From: Reinekea forsetii
GTDB taxonomy: Bacteria > Pseudomonadota > Gammaproteobacteria > Pseudomonadales > Natronospirillaceae
Reading direction: 5' to 3'
Length of the DNA: 64,000 nt
NCBI RefSeq assembly: GCF_002795845.1
Contig: NZ_CP011797.1
Location: forward strand, 3,138,001 to 3,202,000
Both the position numbers and the translations under genes were made by a program. This document shows positions 35,811 through 63,383 of this stretch, piece after piece. The notes beneath the pieces are model-generated. The model saw nothing but the letters and a program-made list of their open reading frames with translations. It did not search any database and was not told the DNA's origin. Numbering within the stretch: the stretch's first letter is position 1; the number at the start of each line of letters is the position of its first letter.

Positions 35811-36007
35811 GGGTTGTCCTTTACTGATGAGGATACCGACCTGGCGCCAGATCCTATTGTCGTAATATGAGTGTCATAATATCACAGAGCCTTTCATTCT
35901 TATCCATAGGCCTTATAGGGACATTAGGCACACCCCAGTAGGCGAGAGTTTCCCTAACTGGGCGGATTTCCGGTTGACTTGCCCGATCTTTCGCTGTCAA
36001 ATCCGCG

Positions 36008-36097
36008 TTCGTTCATACGGAATGCGGTGTAAAACCGCAGCGGTCGCGCCACTGTAATTGACAGTTCTTGGGTCATCAGCCAGAAGACGTGAACGAA
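36008..36097 (+). ncRNA. Cobalamin (B12) riboswitch
   Basis: The core GGAATGCGGTGTAAAACCGC and the B12 box GCGCCACTGTAA (36047-36057) match the conserved cobalamin riboswitch. The later CAGCCAGAAGAC corresponds to the conserved GCCAGxxxAC element. An outer stem of 8 perfect pairs, TTCGTTCA (36008-36015) with TGAACGAA (36090-36097), closes the structure. The btu start at 36142 with its AGGAG lies 34 bases later, so adenosylcobalamin binding probably hides the ribosome binding site; no terminator hairpin was seen. Confidence 0.9.
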
Positions 36098-36141
36098 ACA
36101 AACCCTATTTTATTACTGTACGCGCCATACAGGAGATTCAG

Positions 36142-55235: not shown

Positions 55236-56528
55236 CTAAAACAAAAGCTTTAAAGGTGCAAAAACATCACCCAGGGTACGCGCCGCTTCGCGCAGATTGG
55301 TGATGTCGGAGTCATAGCAGGCAATGGCATCATTGGGCATTAGATAGGGATTCTCCTGATCCAAATGCGCCTGCCTCATAAGCCGTTCAATCGACCGCTC
55401 GATCACCTGAAACTCGCCGCTGATTGGATTCTTACTGGCTAATACCACCTTGCGCGCCGCGTTAGTCGCCTGAACCCCACCGACACAGTTGGCCGAGACA
55501 ACCGCCTGCAACAGTCGCGTGCCATAGGGCAAACTGGTGCTGTAACTGGTGCTGCCACCCGAGGCATTGCCCTGCGAGGTGACCGTCAGGTTCGACATAA
55601 AGACTCTGAACCCCTTGGGCGTTATTTGCGATGGCCGCATCAGCTGTTGCTGGAAGCAACCGGTCGTCGGTACCACTATCCGGTCTCCGGCAATAAGGGC
55701 CAACTGGGTCACCGATGACCCGGTCAGCACGCCGCTCATATCGACTTCAAGCTGCCAACCGTTACGGATAACGATGACCTGGTCCAACTTGGCGTCTGGG
55801 CGAATACCCGAGGCCGCACGCAGCGCCTCGACGAGGGTGCGGCGACTGGCGTAATCGCCGAACGCATTGAGGCGCTCGACCAACACCGCACTGGGTTCCA
55901 GGTCATTAATCCGAACCTGACCAGCTTCGAATACCGCGCCAGAGACCGCCACTTCAATAGGCGCCCAATGCAGTACGCGCACACTGACGTGCACCGACTG
56001 GGGCTGAAAATAGCCGGCATTGACCAATGCGGCACCAATCCGCTCTGCCGCCTGCGTGACACCGTGGCCGACCACATCGATCGGTTTGAGTAAGGCCAGC
56101 TGTATGGTGCCATCGGGGTTGACCACGTAGCGCCCAGCGAAGCCATCTCCGTCCTCAATCTGGATATCGACTATTTCACCCGGACTGAGTGGCAAGTCAC
56201 TGTTAAGCAATTGTTGTTGCCTATTGGCCGATTGGATCGATGCGTCGAACGGCAGCGGCTGATAGCGCACATAATGGCCGGCCTGGTATTGTGAGGCTTG
56301 CCCTAGGCAGCTTCGGTCGGAAGCAAAAATAACCGCCCGGCCTTCGGCGCCAAAGTTCTCATCGGCGTTTGGAACTGTCGACGATTGAACGGGATTGGTC
56401 GGATTGCCATAGAAACTTTGGTCCACGTCACTAGTCGGTTGCACTGCATGCAACGGACTGCAGGCGCTCATGCCCAGCACCATACCCACGAGCGGGATAA
56501 CCAAAAAACATCGAAAAATCCTAACCAT
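55236..56528 (-). CDS. Wza-type polysaccharide export lipoprotein
   Basis: 430 residues. A lipoprotein signal ends GMSAC with Cys23. A polysaccharide export (Poly_export) domain (LSPGEIVDIQIEDGDGFAGR; YVVNPDGTIQLALLKPIDVV) is followed by SLBB-like repeats (VSGAVFEAGQVRINDLEPSA; LAIIAGDRI-type strands). It forms the outer-membrane channel for polymer release. First gene of the operon; a sigma-54-type promoter ends 37 bases upstream of the ATG. Confidence 0.88.
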   Translation of the reverse strand: MVRIFRCFLVIPLVGMVLGMSACSPLHAVQPTSDVDQSFYGNPTNPVQSSTVPNADENFGAEGRAVIFASDRSCLGQASQYQAGHYVRYQPLPFDASIQSANRQQQLLNSDLPLSPGEIVDIQIEDGDGFAGRYVVNPDGTIQLALLKPIDVVGHGVTQAAERIGAALVNAGYFQPQSVHVSVRVLHWAPIEVAVSGAVFEAGQVRINDLEPSAVLVERLNAFGDYASRRTLVEALRAASGIRPDAKLDQVIVIRNGWQLEVDMSGVLTGSSVTQLALIAGDRIVVPTTGCFQQQLMRPSQITPKGFRVFMSNLTVTSQGNASGGSTSYSTSLPYGTRLLQAVVSANCVGGVQATNAARKVVLASKNPISGEFQVIERSIERLMRQAHLDQENPYLMPNDAIACYDSDITNLREAARTLGDVFAPLKLLF

Positions 56529-56931
56529 ATAGGCTGAGCTCTCAGTTACGTTGGCTTAGGCAATTGCAAACGACATACCAACACTGATGCCAGGCTAACA
56601 GGTTGATTAATCGTAGAAATTATCAGCGCGCTGGACTCTTTTCGCATTTTAGAAATTGCATTTTGCTTGGCCTAATCAGCGTTTTTTGCAGTTTCGTAAT
56701 GCCGATTAACGGGGGATTGCTCGTTTTTTATAACCAGACTATTAAATCCTGAGGGTCGCGGACACCTCCGTTGCATGGGTACAAAACGGGGTTGCGCAAA
56801 ATTACTGCTATTCTGAATAGGGACTTGGCACTGGGCAGCCCAATCCGGAGTGGGCTTGGAGTTCGGGTCAGAAACCTATTTAACCGTTTAGCCGCCAAGG
56901 AATTATCCGGATAACAGACGAGGAGACTTAC
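56529..56931. other. Intergenic region between the Wza operon and the 56932 gene
   Basis: 403 bases between divergent genes. It contains the -24/-12 promoter of the minus-strand operon (56565-56581), AT-rich sequence with several T-runs, and a TTGGCAC element (56825-56831) on the plus strand whose GC partner is one base too close for sigma-54. Nothing else was recognised. Confidence 0.6.
56565..56581 (-). promoter_or_regulatory. Sigma-54-type promoter upstream of the Wza operon
   Basis: On the minus strand TTGGTATGTCGTTTGCA has GG and GC 12 bases apart, a perfect TTTGCA -12 block and a -24 block with two changes (TTGGTATG for CTGGCACG). Transcription would start near 56554, 26 bases before the ATG. 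Confidence 0.55.
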
Positions 56932-57327
56932 ATGAAGAGCAACAAGGTAGATGCCTATACCCAGCACACCCTGAGTAATATTAAGCCCGAGGTATTCAAG
57001 ACCCTCAATCTGGTGCAACTGGAAGCCATTCGCCAGGCGATCAGCACCAATGCGCCGTTTCGACAGCATCCGATCGATATCCGGATTGCTTTGCCGCTGT
57101 TCTTTGTTAAGTTTTATCTGGTGTTCTTGGTGGGGCAGGACCGCCGGTCCGATACGCGTGCTCGAGAGTCGCTGCGCCGAACGGCGGTAAGGGGCATGAT
57201 CTTTATTCTGATACTCTATGGCTTGGTTGCGTTGTCTATACCGTTGATATTCTTGATGCTCTATGCATTAAAATCTCTGATGGGCATCGATATTTTTCCA
57301 GACCAACACCTGCGCGATTTTTTCTAA
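56932..57327 (+). CDS. Small two-helix membrane protein of unknown function
   Basis: 131 residues, GAGGAGA upstream of the ATG. Residues 1-45 are soluble (YTQHTLSNIKPEVFKTLNLV; QLEAIRQAISTNAPFRQHPI). Two hydrophobic stretches follow, IALPLFFVKFYLVFLVGQ and MIFILILYGLVALSIPLIFL, separated by a basic segment rich in Arg (DRRSDTRARESLRRTAVRG). No known domain recognised. It is the only plus-strand gene inside the exopolysaccharide locus and faces the sugar transferase gene, so a role in polymer production is possible but unproven. Confidence 0.7.
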   Translation: MKSNKVDAYTQHTLSNIKPEVFKTLNLVQLEAIRQAISTNAPFRQHPIDIRIALPLFFVKFYLVFLVGQDRRSDTRARESLRRTAVRGMIFILILYGLVALSIPLIFLMLYALKSLMGIDIFPDQHLRDFF

Positions 57328-57367
57328 TTTCTCTATTAATTGCGCCCAGCTATCAGTCCAACCTATC

Positions 57368-58066
57368 TCAATAAGCGCCCTTGCCGAACGCCACCGCCGG
57401 CAGAGTATAGAGCAGTATCTTTAGGTCAAGGCTTAGACTCTGCTCGTGGATATAGCGTAGGTCCAGAGCGATTTGCTCGTCAAAGGTGGTGTCGGCGCGG
57501 CCGGATACCTGCCACAAGCCGGTCAAGCCGGGATTCACTTGCAATCGATGCATGGCCAGGGTGGAGTAGACCGCGACCTCGTCGATTAGGGCCGGCCGCG
57601 GACCAATTAAAACCATGTCGCCTTTTACAACATTCCACAGCTGGGGCAATTCGTCGATCGATAGCTTACGTATAATTCGACCCAGAGGCGTAATACGGGG
57701 ATCCTTAAATAATTTCTTGCATGCGCCTTCACGGTCACTTTGCAATTGGCTCGGGTCAATATATTTTGCATCGGTATTGAGATACATAGAGCGAAATTTA
57801 TAAAGCGTAAAACGTCTACCCTGCTTGCCGACTCGGACCTGAGAATAGATGGCGGCACCCTTACTTTCCCAACGCAGCGCCAGGCCAACCAATAACAATA
57901 TCGGCGAAATTAGCACCAGGCCGAGGGCGGCAGCCAAACGTTGAACAACTGAGGGCAGACAGGTCAGTTTTGCCGGTAGGAATTTTGCGACCCGGGGTGA
58001 GAGCCCGATCGGTAATGGGTTGGCTGGGGTGCTGTTATAAAATTCCGTGCTGTGGTGAGTGCTCAT
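57368..58066 (-). CDS. Initiating sugar transferase (undecaprenyl-phosphate glycosyl-1-phosphate transferase, WcaJ/ExoY type)
   Basis: 232 residues. One N-terminal membrane helix (VQRLAAALGLVLISPILLLV) is followed by the bacterial sugar transferase domain: YSQVRVGKQGRRFTLYKFRS, the catalytic block SIDELPQLWNVVKGDMVLIG, and GPRPAL with PGLTGLWQVSGRA. Only the short C-terminal catalytic form is present. It starts each repeat unit by moving a sugar phosphate onto undecaprenyl phosphate. GGGAG lies seven bases upstream, and a very good sigma-54 promoter precedes it. Confidence 0.93.
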   Translation of the reverse strand: MSTHHSTEFYNSTPANPLPIGLSPRVAKFLPAKLTCLPSVVQRLAAALGLVLISPILLLVGLALRWESKGAAIYSQVRVGKQGRRFTLYKFRSMYLNTDAKYIDPSQLQSDREGACKKLFKDPRITPLGRIIRKLSIDELPQLWNVVKGDMVLIGPRPALIDEVAVYSTLAMHRLQVNPGLTGLWQVSGRADTTFDEQIALDLRYIHEQSLSLDLKILLYTLPAVAFGKGAY

Positions 58067-58108
58067 GATTGTTCTCCCGTTAAAGTTGATTGCCTAGATA
58101 ATAAATAT

Positions 58109-58125
58109 TGCAATCAACATGCCAG
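58109..58125 (-). promoter_or_regulatory. Sigma-54 promoter of the sugar transferase gene
   Basis: On the minus strand CTGGCATGTTGATTGCA matches the consensus YTGGCACGrNNNTTGCW with one clear mismatch (CAT for CAC). GG and GC are exactly 12 bases apart. Transcription would start near 58098, 32 bases before the ATG. The best of the sigma-54 matches in this locus. Confidence 0.8.
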
Positions 58126-58322
58126 GCGAGCTAATAAAATTCCTATAAAAATAGCCGTTAACGATGGACTGTATTTCTAAACCTACGTCGTAATACCGTA
58201 AATATTTTTTAGATCGGGAAATTTATTTCGATTTTTTTTAGAATGCAAAAAAATACCATGTTATTTATAATTTAGAAATTTTTAGGTCCCATCTAGCACT
58301 TATACAGCCAGCAATACAGATC

Positions 58323-58343
58323 AAAAAAACCCCAAAATGGGGC
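58323..58343 (-). terminator. Intrinsic terminator after the WecG-type gene
   Basis: On the minus strand GCCCC-ATTTT-GGGGT forms a short GC stem followed by seven T, 47 bases after the stop. It separates this gene from the sugar transferase gene, so the latter needs its own promoter. Confidence 0.75.
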
Positions 58344-58389
58344 TTAATACTTACGGTCATTAGGTATCTAAGTCAGGGTTTGCAGTCCT

Positions 58390-59643
58390 TCACAGGTCCG
58401 CCTGAGATTTTTTAAGCACAAAGGCGCGCCATAAAAAAAGGGGATTGCCAATAACATAACGCGTGAACTTAACCCTCGGCTCCTGGATCAATCTAAACAC
58501 CCATTCCAGGCCCAGCTCGCGCATCCACAGCGGAGCCCTGGGAATATTACCGGATAAAAAATCAAACAGCCCACCCACCGCGATAGCGGTACCCACTTTT
58601 AGGCGCAGCCTATTTGCCATTACCCAGTCCTCCTGAATCGGCGAACCCAGCGCCACCAGAAGCACATCCGCCTGGGCCGCGTTAATGGCCTCAACTATCT
58701 GATCATTATCCAAATCCGTCAAATGGCCATGTTGGACACCGGCAATGATGAGCCCGGGATGGTTCGCCTGAAGCGCGACGGCCGCCTTCAGTGCAACCCC
58801 GGGTGCAGAGCCGAATAGATAAAGCGAGCGTTTCTGCGCTACCATCTGGGCGCACAGAATGGGCATCAGGTCGGTGCCGTTAATATTATCTTTCAACTGC
58901 ACCTGCATCGATCGAGCGCCCAAGCGAACACCCGAGCCATCGGCTAGGGTACAGTTAGCACGGTTCAGGGTGTGGCGAAAAGAACGGTTGCGGTAGGCCA
59001 GGTTAATCGAATTAACATTGATAAAGTTGACCACATTGCAGGGCCGGCGAACAGGGCCGACGCGCGGTGCAGCATCGGCGCAGATCAGATCGACTGCCTG
59101 CGCCATGCGTAAATTATCAATCCGGATACCGAACAGTTTAAAGGACGATGGCGCCCGCAGATGAGCCGTTCGGTAGAGTAGCGAAGAGAACAGCCCCTTC
59201 AAGAGATATTTCAGATATAGGCTAGTACTGCGCTGCGCCTGGTGATGAGCCATGCTCTGCTCAACGGTCAGGCCGATCAGTCCGACCCGGTGCTGTATCT
59301 CAGCGATACTGTAGAGCCCGGCCTTTAAGTTATGCAGATCGGCGCGATGAATGCTGCCAAAGCCGCCATTGAGCGATACCCCAACGAACGACAGCGATCC
59401 GTTCGCCACATTGAGCAGCGCGGCGCTGGTGGGTAAAAACCCTACCTGCCAGCGATAAAGGCCGTGATCCCGACAGAGCACGTCTTGCTGAACAATTTTT
59501 ACCAGAGGTGCCTTGTGTTGCCAGACGGCTAACAGCACATTAATCAGCCACAGGGGCGACAGAAGTAGCATGGTGACGCAGGCCAAACTCAGATCGAGCA
59601 GTCGTTCCAACTTAGGTTGTAGCGTTGAGTCAGTGTTGTGCAT
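58390..59643 (-). CDS. WecG/TagA/CpsF glycosyltransferase with an N-terminal degenerate sugar-transferase region
   Basis: 417 residues from ATG 59643 (AAAGGG eight bases upstream); a GTG three codons earlier is possible. Residues 165-410 are a complete WecG/TagA domain: FINVNSINLAYRNRSFRHTL, CTLADGSGVRLGAR, INGTDLMPIL, LFGSAPGVALKAAVAL and LVALGSPIQEDWV. Residues 8-150 (LERLLDLSLACVTMLLLSPL; VANGSLSFVGVSLNGG; KAGLYSIAEIQHRVGL) resemble a bacterial sugar transferase without its catalytic DELPQ and GPRP motifs. The enzyme probably adds the second sugar. A sigma-54-type promoter lies upstream. Confidence 0.85.
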   Translation of the reverse strand: MHNTDSTLQPKLERLLDLSLACVTMLLLSPLWLINVLLAVWQHKAPLVKIVQQDVLCRDHGLYRWQVGFLPTSAALLNVANGSLSFVGVSLNGGFGSIHRADLHNLKAGLYSIAEIQHRVGLIGLTVEQSMAHHQAQRSTSLYLKYLLKGLFSSLLYRTAHLRAPSSFKLFGIRIDNLRMAQAVDLICADAAPRVGPVRRPCNVVNFINVNSINLAYRNRSFRHTLNRANCTLADGSGVRLGARSMQVQLKDNINGTDLMPILCAQMVAQKRSLYLFGSAPGVALKAAVALQANHPGLIIAGVQHGHLTDLDNDQIVEAINAAQADVLLVALGSPIQEDWVMANRLRLKVGTAIAVGGLFDFLSGNIPRAPLWMRELGLEWVFRLIQEPRVKFTRYVIGNPLFLWRAFVLKKSQADL

Positions 59644-59741
59644 ATTTTTCACCCTTTCAGCATTGGCAAAATAAAAAGTGCCTAGACGAGCAGCACCGCA
59701 TTGAACCGGGCTGCCACACTGCGCCTAGGCCATTAAGCCAG

Positions 59742-59758
59742 AGCAATCTCTAGGCCAA
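59742..59758 (-). promoter_or_regulatory. Sigma-54-type promoter upstream of the WecG-type gene
   Basis: On the minus strand TTGGCCTAGAGATTGCT keeps TTGGC, the GG-GC distance of 12 bases and the TTGCT -12 block; two changes (CT for AC) lie in the -24 block. Transcription would start near 59731, about 90 bases before the start codon. Confidence 0.55.
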
Positions 59759-59801
59759 TAGCGCGGGCTAACCTGCCGGCTTGTCCACTGGCTGGCTCGA
59801 T

Positions 59802-60326
59802 TTATAAAACCACCTCAAAGCGAGCCTCGAGCGCATCGTCTTTTTCCCATACTGCAAAATCTGCTGGCTGATCCGTGTCAAAATACCAAACCACGGCAAG
59901 GACCGAGCTAACATTATTTGGCAGGTCAAGCGTGGCGGCAAAGTCGCCCTCCAGCGCGACACGAAGTTGACAGTTGGCATAGTTGACCACATAGCCTTGT
60001 TCTTGCTGACTGAAATCACTGCACACCGATAGATAACCGGCACGCTGTTGCTGGTTGGCCACAGCCAACTCCAAGGCATAGGTCTGGTTAAAACTGTAAC
60101 CTGCGGGCACCCGCAAATCAGCCGTAGCCACCGCCCCTTGATCGAGATTTTCCTCAAGCGGCATCGATGTCACAGCCACAGCGTCGGCCACAGGTGTTAT
60201 CGCAGTAACACTGGCGACTGGGCTGGCATCGGGCCCAGAACTGGGGCTCATAATCTCAGGGGCACAACCGACCAACACAAAACTGGCTGTCACCATGACC
60301 CAATAAAAAGCATTCCGTTTCATCAT
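59802..60326 (-). CDS. Small lipoprotein of unknown function, partner of the LruC protein
   Basis: About 174 residues. A signal ending LVGC predicts lipidation at Cys21. A linker rich in Ser, Pro, Ala and Val (about 50 residues) follows, then a domain of about 110 residues with beta-type patterns (VPAGYSFNQTYALELAVANQ; CQLRVALEGDFAATLDLPNN; VLAVVWYFDTDQPADFAVWE) and two Cys. No known family recognised. GTG 60335, ATG 60326 and ATG 60323 are possible starts; GTG 60335 directly abuts the stop of the LruC gene, so the pair is one operon. Probably surface-exposed or periplasmic. Confidence 0.7.
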   Translation of the reverse strand: MMKRNAFYWVMVTASFVLVGCAPEIMSPSSGPDASPVASVTAITPVADAVAVTSMPLEENLDQGAVATADLRVPAGYSFNQTYALELAVANQQQRAGYLSVCSDFSQQEQGYVVNYANCQLRVALEGDFAATLDLPNNVSSVLAVVWYFDTDQPADFAVWEKDDALEARFEVVL

Positions 60327-60335
60327 CGATCTCAC

Positions 60336-62438
60336 TTATTCAAATGTATTAGCACTATTGCTCTGTTCAACCACAAACCAATCGAGATCCAAGGCGCCAT
60401 TTGATTGGACATGCGTTTGGAAGTTCGGGTAGGCATAGCGGATGTCCATATTCTCCAATGGGTAGCGCCACTCATAGGGCAGATCGAGCGCCCACGGCAT
60501 GCCATGTTCATTGACATAAAACCGACCGAGCGTGGCATCGGAATCATCATCCCCACGACCGAAGAAGTTTTCTTGAAAAGCTTCGGTCGGCGCTTGGTTT
60601 TGCAGATGGATCTCATAGCGCCGGCCCGGCGCTTCGCCAAACAGATAACCGCGCTCTTGGTTCGGCGCGGAAAAGATAAACGGATCGAATGGAAACGCGG
60701 CTAGATCCGTGGCATCGACATCGTTTATCAACGGAACAATGATCCGGAATTCCATCTGAATATTGGAACCACAATCCTGCTCGGTACGATAAAAACGGCA
60801 TTGTTCACCCGCGGTTACATAATCCCAGAGGTCGTCGGAGATAATGATAATCGCCTCGTCCCGGCCAGTTTCCAATGGTGATGCCATAACCGGGTTGTCA
60901 TTGATCGTAAAGGTAATGTGGGCCTCATCAATTTGATCGCGGGTTAAACCAGTAAGACGGAAAGCCAAACCATTATGGTAGGCCGCGCCCAGTGCCACGA
61001 TGCGCCCCGCTAGGGTAATCCGTAACAGCTTATCCTCGTTGGTCACGGTACTCAGGCGGTAATTGGCGACCACATCGTTCATATCGTAATCGCCCTTGAG
61101 CGGCCAATTGTCTTCGAAGGCGAGGGTATTCCAACCCTGTTCACTGGGATGGTAGTGCACCACCACATTGGGCTCGATAATCGAAATTTCATAATCTTCA
61201 ACTTCGCCATCCCCGACACCGCCAACCGGTTCGAGCTGCATTTGGCTACTCAAGCGAAAGCGCGACCAGGTGTCGCCCACATTAGCCCAATTGGGAACTC
61301 GATAGATAATGGCGTTAGGACCGGCCTGCATAGCTTCGGCATCGGCAATGCGTTCATCCTTATCAAACAGGCCATTGCGATTCCAGTCGATCCAGACATT
61401 GAGGTAGCCCGGTGCCGAGGCGACTACCGTGGTGATCGAGTTGCGCCCCGGTTCAAAATTGGTAACAAAGGCGACGCCATCATTATCGCTTCCTTCCAAT
61501 CCATTGACGGCATAGGCATTGGGCTCACCACTAACAGATCCGCCTAGAAACAGGCTGCCGTCACCGACATCATGGCGCGGTCCGTTGGATCCGATTGAGG
61601 TCTGATAGGAATCAGGTGCATCCCCAAAGTCGGTCGTCGGGGATTCAATGGAGATGATCGGGGCCAAGGCACATCGAGCGCCATCGTTGTTACTGGAGGC
61701 CGGCCCAAAGGCGAAGAATTCGGCTATCGGATAATCCCATTGGGTGTTGACCCGATAGATATGACCGTCGCTGTTGCGACTGATATAGAGGTTGGCGTTG
61801 ACATCAAAATAGACCGCCCCGAAGGTACCGGCTTGCCCGACATTACTGATTTTTTCAGTCTTGCCTAAGACGACGTCTATTGCCCATAGATTGCCCCAAC
61901 GATCGACCGAATAGGCCAAGCCATTGTCGGGGTGAAAGGCCATATCATAGATGGACAGATTGATCTGGTTGCCATTGGCCACCTGCTGCGTGGTCAAATA
62001 GCCTGCCGCAGTGGGGTCCAGTGGAATACGATACAGACCATAACTGGCACCAGGCCGATAGAGATAATAGCTGTTTTCAGTTAAGGCGATATCACCAACA
62101 TAGAAACCCATATTGGGTAACCCCGTTAACCACAGCGGAGAAACCGCAAGTTGGGCGTCAATCGTTACGATGGTGCCGTAATGGTAATTGTACGCGTACA
62201 GATAACGGTCGTGAATGTTAAAGGCCAAAGCATTCATCTTTGCCTCACCCCAGTCATGCGGTGATTCTTTCTGGTAGTAGCCGGTCGCCAATTGGACGCC
62301 ATACAGATTGGCGACCTTATCTTGAATCAAAAATGCCTCCGTCGGACACTCGCCAAAGGCCTCTGCCGAGACCTGCGCCGACCAAGTTGCCAAGGCCGAC
62401 ATTAAGAATAGTAATAATTTATTTTTAAATCTTTTCAT
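60336..62438 (-). CDS. LruC-domain secreted protein with GEVED motif
   Basis: 700 residues with a signal peptide ending near AQVSA. Residues 30-265 look like a beta-propeller-type repeat region (LNALAFNIHDRYLYAYNYHY; IYDMAFHPDNGLAYSVDRWG). Residues 270-425 contain DFGDAPDSYQTS, a pattern common in bacterial surface proteins, and end in GDGEVEDYEISI (GEVED domain). Residues 430-700 match the LruC domain: LAFEDNWPLKGDYDMNDVVA, with acidic residues likely to bind calcium. Function is unknown. Within this locus it could be a matrix or surface protein. AAGG lies six bases before the ATG; a weak sigma-54-like element lies further upstream. Confidence 0.82.
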   Translation of the reverse strand: MKRFKNKLLLFLMSALATWSAQVSAEAFGECPTEAFLIQDKVANLYGVQLATGYYQKESPHDWGEAKMNALAFNIHDRYLYAYNYHYGTIVTIDAQLAVSPLWLTGLPNMGFYVGDIALTENSYYLYRPGASYGLYRIPLDPTAAGYLTTQQVANGNQINLSIYDMAFHPDNGLAYSVDRWGNLWAIDVVLGKTEKISNVGQAGTFGAVYFDVNANLYISRNSDGHIYRVNTQWDYPIAEFFAFGPASSNNDGARCALAPIISIESPTTDFGDAPDSYQTSIGSNGPRHDVGDGSLFLGGSVSGEPNAYAVNGLEGSDNDGVAFVTNFEPGRNSITTVVASAPGYLNVWIDWNRNGLFDKDERIADAEAMQAGPNAIIYRVPNWANVGDTWSRFRLSSQMQLEPVGGVGDGEVEDYEISIIEPNVVVHYHPSEQGWNTLAFEDNWPLKGDYDMNDVVANYRLSTVTNEDKLLRITLAGRIVALGAAYHNGLAFRLTGLTRDQIDEAHITFTINDNPVMASPLETGRDEAIIIISDDLWDYVTAGEQCRFYRTEQDCGSNIQMEFRIIVPLINDVDATDLAAFPFDPFIFSAPNQERGYLFGEAPGRRYEIHLQNQAPTEAFQENFFGRGDDDSDATLGRFYVNEHGMPWALDLPYEWRYPLENMDIRYAYPNFQTHVQSNGALDLDWFVVEQSNSANTFE

Positions 62439-62485
62439 AAAGAAACCTTAAAGAATTACAGTTAATTTCGTGCTGCATAGGTCTA

Positions 62486-62502
62486 TACAATATTCGGGCC
62501 AC
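62486..62502 (-). promoter_or_regulatory. Weak sigma-54-like element upstream of the LruC gene
   Basis: On the minus strand GTGGCCCGAATATTGTA keeps the spacing but has GT instead of the near-invariant GC in the -12 block, so it is doubtful alone. It is listed because three better matches lie in the same locus. Confidence 0.25.
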
Positions 62503-62648
62503 AATGGCCGACCCCTTTAGTTTTCAACAGGTCGTAGACAAGAGTGCAAAAAAAAGCCCGTTCCGCCGCTGTGCTTTCGCGAAATGAAAAATCATTATTG
62601 TAACGATTCAAACGATGCTCCATTGCCAGAGGGATGGCTTGGGTAGCC

Positions 62649-63383
62649 TTAGGGAGTCTGAAAGAGGGGGTATCGGTGCAGTGTGCTGGCGGTTAAGGTA
62701 GCCAATTGGGGACTTAGACTCGCACTGGCAGGGCATATAAAATGGTTCAGGCGCGTATAGGCCGCCAAACCATAGTGGCAAAGAATGTAAGCTAGGCGAG
62801 CCGGCCAGCTCACTTTGAAATGGCGACGCATAGGGCCCGCACTGTAGTGGCGGATATAATCGCGCAACTCCGGATCACTATTATTATTCCACCGCTGGTC
62901 CAAAATTTCGAGCAATGGGAATTGTCGACTGAAGTGAATCACATGGCCATTTTCACCCCAGCCAACATCGTCCTGCGCAGGCAGACTCATGTTCCGATGG
63001 CGCAGTATTGTTTCGAGCAGTTGAATGCTGTCAGTACAGCGTTTAAAAACCATCACCCCTGAATTGATGCGTGCTGAATACCCATGGGCGGCAAAAAATG
63101 CTTTCCGTGTGTCAATGCACTCCAGAATGTTTGGCGCCTCGGTGGCTATAGCGGCATCGGCGTCGACAAAGATAACCCAATCGTAACCGGCCCGTAACGC
63201 CGCCAAGATAAGACTGAGCTTGAGCCATGCGACCTCTATACCCAGCGCGGTAAAGTGCGGCCGAGTCACAATCACTCGACTAAAGTTTAGTCTATCAGCG
63301 TACTGAACAATCGATTTGAGATTGGCAGAGTATTGCAGGTTATAACCGTTTACAGCTATGGAAAAAATTAACGTTTTTGGCAT
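62649..63383 (-). CDS. Glycosyltransferase, GMA12/MNN10-like GT-A fold
   Basis: 244 residues. It shows LIFSIAVNGYNLQYSANLKS, a DxD motif in WVIFVDADAAIA (about residues 68-79), INSGVMVFKR and the late acceptor-site pattern AQDDVGWGENGHVI. These resemble galactosyl/mannosyltransferases that hold a nucleotide sugar with the DxD acids. The product is unknown. AGAGG lies nine bases before the ATG. It is transcribed away from the regulator at the right edge and lies 210 bases before the LruC gene on the same strand, with no clear terminator between them apart from a T8 run. Confidence 0.72.
   Translation of the reverse strand: MPKTLIFSIAVNGYNLQYSANLKSIVQYADRLNFSRVIVTRPHFTALGIEVAWLKLSLILAALRAGYDWVIFVDADAAIATEAPNILECIDTRKAFFAAHGYSARINSGVMVFKRCTDSIQLLETILRHRNMSLPAQDDVGWGENGHVIHFSRQFPLLEILDQRWNNNSDPELRDYIRHYSAGPMRRHFKVSWPARLAYILCHYGLAAYTRLNHFICPASASLSPQLATLTASTLHRYPLFQTP

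Follow-up and report, generated by a model that had tools for sequence, protein, structure and literature searches.

The exopolysaccharide (EPS) cluster at the end of a 64,000-nucleotide stretch of the Reinekea forsetii chromosome (the window; C1:3138001-3202000 of a one-contig genome of 3.66 Mb) appears to be a sigma-54 regulon of an enhancer-binding protein (EBP) that is encoded in the cluster itself, a reading to which we assign a probability of roughly 0.86. The polymer would thus probably be made only upon a signal, which is possibly relayed by adjacent nitric oxide (NO) sensor genes. The figure given for the regulon does not extend to this NO arm, which is a hypothesis. The activator-switched regulon is inferred from promoter elements, their conserved spacing, an activator gene and enhancer-like sites, that is from sequence and not from transcription. 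The reading was extended past the window end into the adjoining stretch L003, in which a coordinate equals the window coordinate minus 50000.

Promoter elements and their background

Five elements of the -24/-12 type were found in front of transcription units of the cluster:

58109..58125, minus strand: sigma-54 element of the initiating sugar transferase gene, CTGGCATG-TTGA-TTGCA, 19.1 bits
56565..56581, minus strand: sigma-54 element of the wza-wzc-wzy-pyruvyl transferase-GT2 run, TTGGTATG-TCGT-TTGCA, 17.4 bits
59742..59758, minus strand: sigma-54 element of the wecG-type gene, TTGGCCTA-GAGA-TTGCT, 14.3 bits
62486..62502, minus strand: weak sigma-54-like element of lruC, 9.9 bits, with TGTA and not TGCA at -12
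65149-65165 (window coordinates, past the window end), plus strand: sigma-54 element of wzx, 14.1 bits

A sequence-only reading of the window had proposed the first three of these sites on account of a GG and a GC exactly 12 bases apart and of their TTGC blocks. Coordinates and letters agree with the DNA, and the three are the top matrix sites of the window on both strands, followed by 6591 (14.1 bits, within an open reading frame, ORF), 16371 and 42044 in a range from 14.1 to 13.4 bits. The same reading had placed them before the Wza operon, the initiating transferase and the WecG-type gene, which is corroborated by the Pfam matches Poly_export, Bac_transf and Glyco_tran_WecG, and had called the element at 62486-62502 weaker, in line with its score. 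Altogether, the spacing and the -24/-12 consensus expected of a sigma-54 promoter are found at the three sites and at 65149 (14.1-19.1 bits), while at 62486 the GC at -12 is absent. Transcription starts are predicted at about 58098 for the sugar transferase promoter and at about 56554 for the wza promoter; the wzx-like gene starts 32 bases after its element.

Across 505 kb of genome scored with the matrix, the element at 58109 ranks first and that at 56565 fourth. The pattern TGGCAYGNNNNTTGCW occurs at two places genome-wide, 58109 among them, and TTGGYNYGNNNNTTGCA, a pattern built after the sites were seen, at three places including 56565 and 65149. Four sites with scores from 14 bits upwards lie in the eight spacers of the locus, which total 1486 bp; dinucleotide shuffles contain 0.04 on average, and none reached four (0/400). 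As a chromosomal background, 20 stretches of 20 kb were taken at even intervals (400 kb in all, including 5 kb of N); no intergenic site there attained 14 bits, and two sites within ORFs did. Relative to both backgrounds, strong sites are enriched in the locus. A further stretch (L005), picked for holding a strong match, contains three intergenic sites of 15.5-18.1 bits together with two EBP genes and genes that look flagellar by eye; since it holds three strong intergenic sites, it serves as positive control for the matrix.

Conservation of the elements in related clusters

A scan for the Wza family yielded 61 loci, with flanks that end at 10 kb, from genera including Colwellia, Pseudoalteromonas, Paraglaciecola, Glaciecola, Thalassotalea, Teredinibacter, Oleiphilus, Ketobacter and Spongiibacter. 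Upstream elements were counted in 60 of the 61 loci, for genes with at least 80 bp upstream, on the sense strand and from 10 bits upwards. Among the relatives, an element was found upstream of wza in 53/58, of wecG in 49/52 and of lruC in 26/32 cases. As controls, ORFs from these loci that match no cluster protein had one in 11/163 cases, and the antisense strand of wza in 2/58. When the wza regions are sorted into 28 labelled groups, a region that reaches 10 bits is present in 25 of them. When the spacing was changed from 12 to 11 or 13, the counts dropped to 0 and 3 of 58 for wza, to 0 and 0 of 52 for wecG and to 1 and 0 of 32 for lruC. The relatives thus show the strong peak at 12 that would be expected of conserved sigma-54 promoters.

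Not all genes of the cluster take part in this pattern. The gene of the type of 62649-63383 has an element in 19/41 relatives, the activator gene in none of 31, and in R. forsetii no element of at least 8 bits was found in the spacers before 62649-63383 and before the H-NOX gene. The sequence-only reading had described the whole locus as a coordinated sigma-54 regulon that is switched on by an activator. This is supported at the level of sequence for the coordination and for the activator by the presence of rpoN, an activator gene in the cluster, the 12-base spacing conserved in other genera and an enhancer-like motif at five promoters, whereas "whole locus" proved too wide.

Enhancer-like sites of the LuxO type

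After removal of near-duplicate loci, palindromes were counted across 113 upstream regions, a set that includes the five of R. forsetii. The palindrome TTGCA-N3-TGCAA occurred in 20 of the 113 regions, while mononucleotide shuffles gave at most 4 for any motif of the same size; palindromes of A/T runs were likewise above these shuffles, which do not preserve runs. With up to one mismatch, the motif was present in 61 of the 108 non-local regions (shuffled mean 0.45) and in 32 of 39 loci, and of 78 such sites in the relatives, 63 have their centre 60-119 bp ahead of the -27 base. According to excerpts of two papers, TTGCA-N3-TGCAA is the enhancer of LuxO, TTGCAWWWTGCAA (PMC10162802, PMC11443567). 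When the palindrome search was confined to the five local promoters, no shared motif beyond A/T runs emerged; the enhancer came to light only once the relatives were included.

An enhancer matrix built without the local genome matched each of the five local promoters with 11.4-16.4 bits, at distances of 67-117 bp ahead of the -27 base; each score was reached by none or one of 168 sampled intergenic background segments:

56639..56657, minus strand: enhancer-like site of wza, a degenerate TTGCA-N3-TGCAA, 11.4 bits, 67 bp upstream, 1/168
58233..58251, minus strand: enhancer-like site of the sugar transferase promoter, 13.3 bits, 117 bp upstream, 0/168
59842..59860, minus strand: enhancer-like site of the wecG promoter, within the end of a lipoprotein-like ORF, 11.9 bits, 93 bp upstream, 1/168
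62574..62592, minus strand: enhancer-like site of the lruC promoter, 13.0 bits, 81 bp upstream, 0/168
65040-65058, past the window end, plus strand: enhancer-like site of wzx, 16.4 bits, 0/168

Four further places of at least 11 bits were found in the window plus 6 kb, none of which is paired with a sigma-54 element. In a joint test for both (9.5 bits for the element, 10 bits for the enhancer, 40-150 bp apart, with thresholds chosen after the local scores were known), exactly the five EPS promoters were recovered within the window plus 6 kb, compared to zero pairs in 22 other genome stretches (440 kb including 5 kb N, L005 among them). The three strong sigma-54 sites of L005 showed no enhancer-like site, the best score being 1.0 bits.

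The activator

63452-65017, plus strand, crossing the window end (L003:13452-15017): gene of a sigma-54 enhancer-binding protein of 521 aa with receiver, AAA+ domain and Fis-type helix-turn-helix (HTH); Sigma54_activat 207 bits, Response_reg 86.6, HTH_8 34.5

The genome holds 17 matches to Sigma54_activat, 13 of them of at least 205 bits. The protein encoded in the EPS cluster shows all features expected of an EBP of the NtrC family, namely an AAA+ domain with Walker A and Walker B, a sigma-54 contact loop, an HTH and the acceptor aspartate of the receiver, with GAFSGA as a variant of the loop. In an alignment with 40 homologues the phospho-acceptor D59 is invariant and GAFSGA is found in 39 of the 41 sequences. 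Within the genome, GAFSGA was present in none of nine other activators read, where the motif search missed three of the 13 strong ones.

The two halves of the protein point to different families. For the receiver the best family is NosR (NF053512; 179 bits over residues 11-138, next family 72), and its match to LuxO amounts to 50 bits, while for the AAA+/HTH part the best family is LuxO with 404 bits; the best solved structure is also a LuxO (5ep0). On these sequence matches, the activator is a NosR-like receiver joined to a LuxO-like output. Full membership was rejected for LuxO (NF041946; 458.3 bits, cut-off 800), for PrsR (TIGR02915; 357.9 bits, cut-off 502.6) and for NosR, which is matched by the receiver alone (176-179 of 400 bits) and whose phosphodiesterase output is missing.

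In 390 genomes of the order, surveyed at an E of 1e-90 or better with three candidates scored per genome, a homologue of the activator was found in 41. Among the other 21 genomes of the family to which R. forsetii belongs, two hold one under the same limit (46% identity), and in both the wza-wzc-wzy set is absent from the stretch read around it; in the family genome G010, an lruC homologue and a sugar transferase lie near the activator homologue. This scarcity of homologue and cluster in the family hints at a transfer.

The H-NOX and kinase genes

67599-68141, past the window end, plus strand: H-NOX gene, HNOB 114 bits
68134-69159, past the window end, plus strand: histidine kinase gene overlapping the H-NOX ORF, HATPase_c 87.7 bits

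This pair lies 2.6 kb from the activator gene. No second H-NOX match was found in the genome; the HNOB score of the protein stands well against the threshold of 25.5 bits, and the haem-ligand histidine as well as YxSxR align with 2kii; the roles of both in H-NOX proteins are presumed here. Pfam showed neither a receiver nor an Hpt domain in the kinase.

Across the order, H-NOX is found in 102 of the 390 genomes and in 22 of the 41 with an activator homologue. In 11 of these 41 it starts at most 5 kb from the homologue, at a distance of at most 600 bases in 7, and in G188 the gene order is H-NOX, kinase and activator on one strand. In the Wza loci, a kinase-like ORF adjoins H-NOX in all 13 cases in which H-NOX was seen. 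For six response regulators encoded close to such a pair, the domain search gave in every case a receiver, 37-51% identical to that of the activator, and an HD_5 domain (6/6):

L089:15748-17112, L139:711-1979 and L155:11437-12762: HD_5 response regulators near H-NOX/kinase
L170:2421-3701, L130:5909-7261 and L164:2262-3743: further HD_5 response regulators near H-NOX/kinase

Judged from these domains, the activator-like receivers of the HD_5 regulators suggest one kinase with two outputs.

Proposed mechanism and alternative explanations

In the proposed mechanism, the activator phosphorylated at D59 would form a ring on the enhancers and loop onto the RNA polymerase-sigma-54 complex, where ATP hydrolysis would open the promoters, and the polymer units would be switched on jointly. 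The activator gene itself would be expressed from another promoter, its product waiting. With less confidence, the phosphate would be supplied by the non-hybrid histidine kinase beside H-NOX, and NO-bound H-NOX would inhibit this kinase, as reported for the HnoX-HahK pair of Vibrio fischeri, so that NO would shut polymer synthesis off. The complete form of this proposal is a single-locus NO-gated module, in which H-NOX and kinase drive the chimeric activator on four or five sigma-54 promoters via LuxO-type enhancers, which is spread across many marine gammaproteobacterial genera outside Vibrio, and to which the HnoX-HahK-SypG-syp system of V. fischeri, with scattered parts and rerouted through a phosphorelay, would be a relative. 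We advance it tentatively, at a little below even odds.

Several observations weigh against these readings. The frequencies of the sigma-54 matrix (maximum 21.2 bits) were set by hand, and the activator carries GAFSGA in place of GAFTGA. None of the nine places genome-wide with at most one mismatch from TTGCAWWWTGCAA lies at an EPS promoter, where the local forms are degenerate. Spacings from 9 to 15 other than those above gave up to 8/58 for wza (at 14) and 7/32 for lruC (at 9), and only 9 of 37 wzx regions of the relatives reach 10 bits. In Colwellia and several Pseudoalteromonas (e.g. L143, L132), the wzx element keeps its position and the -24 half, while TTGA replaces TTGC at -12. An activator homologue of at least 200 bits was not seen in 24 of the 61 fetched loci, which is partly due to the flanks ending at 10 kb. 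Concerning the NO arm, within the same flanks H-NOX was seen in 13 of the 61 Wza loci and H-NOX together with the activator in 5; 8 of the 11 genomes with a nearby H-NOX hold more distant activator homologues (43-47% identity), of which one neighbourhood was read (G174). The pairing of kinase and activator is drawn from proximity and receiver type and is held with less confidence.

As a side observation, the TTGA-type wzx elements of the relatives mostly lie 34-45 bp before wzx. They are mentioned here together with the activator loop GAFSGA, a connection that is raised as a question only.

The strongest alternative retains the sigma-54 regulon and assumes that the activator answers one or more other kinases, while the H-NOX/kinase pair serves, for example, the turnover of cyclic di-GMP (c-di-GMP). 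Such an arrangement would fit the low number of Wza loci with H-NOX; the HD_5 regulators with activator-like receivers in six relatives indicate that the kinase may have another partner, and H-NOX kinases feed c-di-GMP enzymes according to excerpts of PMC8738867. Two findings oppose it: in the genome itself, the other receivers recovered at an E of 1e-10 or better share at most 36% identity with that of the activator, and in 11 of the 41 genomes of the order with a homologue, H-NOX is no further than 5 kb away from it. We regard this alternative as a serious but rather doubtful one.

In Vibrio, VpsR is an EBP-like regulator that works with sigma-70. An activator of this kind, with the sigma-54 elements as accessory features, would fit the distant match of the protein to VpsR (7v2b, 144 bits), yet Walker A, Walker B and GAFSGA are kept, and the conserved elements sit where promoters of these genes would be expected. 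Moreover, GAFSGA is counted as functional in studies of other regulons, as far as excerpts of these go (PMC4641369, PMC6615313). A VpsR-like mode of action is consequently considered improbable.

Finally, a chance resemblance, in which ordinary sequence is read from sigma-70 promoters, is the least probable explanation, being opposed by the rank of the sites, the shuffles, the sampled background, the conservation of the exact spacing, the joint enhancer test and the number of sigma-70-like matches in 56400-62700, which lies at chance level (7 vs 8.1, the sole one in a spacer overlapping the 58109 element), although loose consensus matches in the window are no commoner than in shuffles. With two mismatches allowed, the loose consensus showed no enrichment in the window (38 vs 42.0 expected) and gave 589 matches in the genome vs 483 for a reversed-pattern control. 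These counts carry no weight as evidence.

Relation to known systems

For the sigma-54 regulon with an EBP of its own, the closest known system is HnoX-HahK-SypG-syp of V. fischeri, which is compared here by way of excerpts of the papers cited. In that organism, NO acts via HnoX to restrain HahK, and HahK promotes SypG-dependent polysaccharide (PMC12369376); the syp locus is organised in four operons, which have sigma-54 promoters and SypG sites (PMC10804989). Both systems share a polysaccharide cluster divided into several operons, with sigma-54 promoters and enhancer sites that are reported for syp (PMC10804989, PMC12369376, PMC10162802) and predicted here, a LuxO-related AAA+ activator encoded in the cluster, the gene of which is the least induced in syp, and an operon of H-NOX and histidine kinase that is able to govern the activator, which is proposed here for R. 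forsetii. The gene content appears to differ from that of syp, the cluster described being of the Wza/Wzy type with a pyruvyl transferase and an LruC protein. The enhancer-like sites, degenerate in R. forsetii, follow the LuxO form TTGCA-N3-TGCAA and not the reported SypG form TTCTCANNNTGMDWN, and the receiver is NosR-like. While HahK is reported to act through SypF/LuxU, the kinase found here lacks receiver and Hpt domains, and a direct phosphotransfer is therefore possible.

LuxO of the LuxO/qrr system is the best family for the AAA+ part (NF041946, PDB 5ep0), and its enhancer motif is the one found in the relatives, and in degenerate form at the local promoters, at a distance similar to the published -89 to -120 from the start (PMC11443567). 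In contrast to LuxO, the activator stays below the family cut-off (458 bits vs 800), its receiver is not LuxO-like (50 bits) and it sits in a polysaccharide cluster. With NosR (NF053512), a c-di-GMP phosphodiesterase, it shares the receiver domain, whereas its output is a sigma-54 AAA+ domain and not a phosphodiesterase domain. The PrsK/PrsR pair of PEP-CTERM systems (TIGR02915) likewise includes a sigma-54-type response regulator tied to EPS loci, from which the activator differs by its score (357.9 bits, cut-off 502.6).

In the literature searched, nothing joined H-NOX, sigma-54 and EPS, and nothing joined the LruC domain and EPS. Among the matches listed there, none names this system; others may. 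The proposal predicts promoters, a regulator, a DNA site and possibly a signal for a polysaccharide cluster in 61 genome loci, and would carry the sigma-54/LuxO-SypG polysaccharide circuit beyond Vibrio, where it was established, into other genera. It also makes it simple to test whether, outside Vibrio, a direct two-component route links NO sensing to biofilm polymer, and the activator would be an example of the receiver of one signalling family placed on the DNA-binding body of another.

Genes of the cluster and further observations

55236..56528, minus strand: wza-type export gene (Poly_export), heading the run wza-wzc-wzy-PS_pyruv_trans-GT2 (56528 down to 50521)
57368..58066, minus strand: initiating sugar transferase gene, Bac_transf 198 bits
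58390..59652, minus strand: glycosyltransferase gene of the WecG/TagA/CpsF family, Glyco_tran_WecG 181 bits
59802..60335, minus strand: small ORF downstream of lruC with a lipoprotein-like signal by eye, no Pfam match
60336..62438, minus strand: gene of an LruC-domain protein, TIGR04456 266 bits, with DUF4842, DUF6923 and GEVED
65198-67485, past the window end, plus strand: wzx and GT2, Polysacc_synt_3 and Glycos_transf_2

Within the wza run, Pfam matched Poly_export, Wzy_C, PS_pyruv_trans and Glycos_transf_2 but gave nothing for the chain-length gene, which lies between wza and wzy; the NCBIfam matches of that gene are to chain-length determinants, at scores far below the cut-offs. The LruC protein and the small lipoprotein-like ORF belong to the EPS cluster; lruC is common in related loci, often with a sigma-54 element of its own. 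A partly hydrophobic ORF of 131 aa without Pfam match (56932-57327, plus strand) is inserted between the wza and sugar transferase genes and runs against the direction of the EPS operons; its homologues recur in related EPS loci, three of them (G188, G077, L166) with 32-39% identity.

A scan of the window, L003 and L004 with Rfam found a cobalamin riboswitch alone, at 35977-36110 on the plus strand (37.4 bits), on the 5' side of ORFs listed from 36058 and 37037. Past the EPS locus, an ORF of 2130 aa (L004:2832-9224, minus strand) is followed by ORFs that appear secretion-related by eye.

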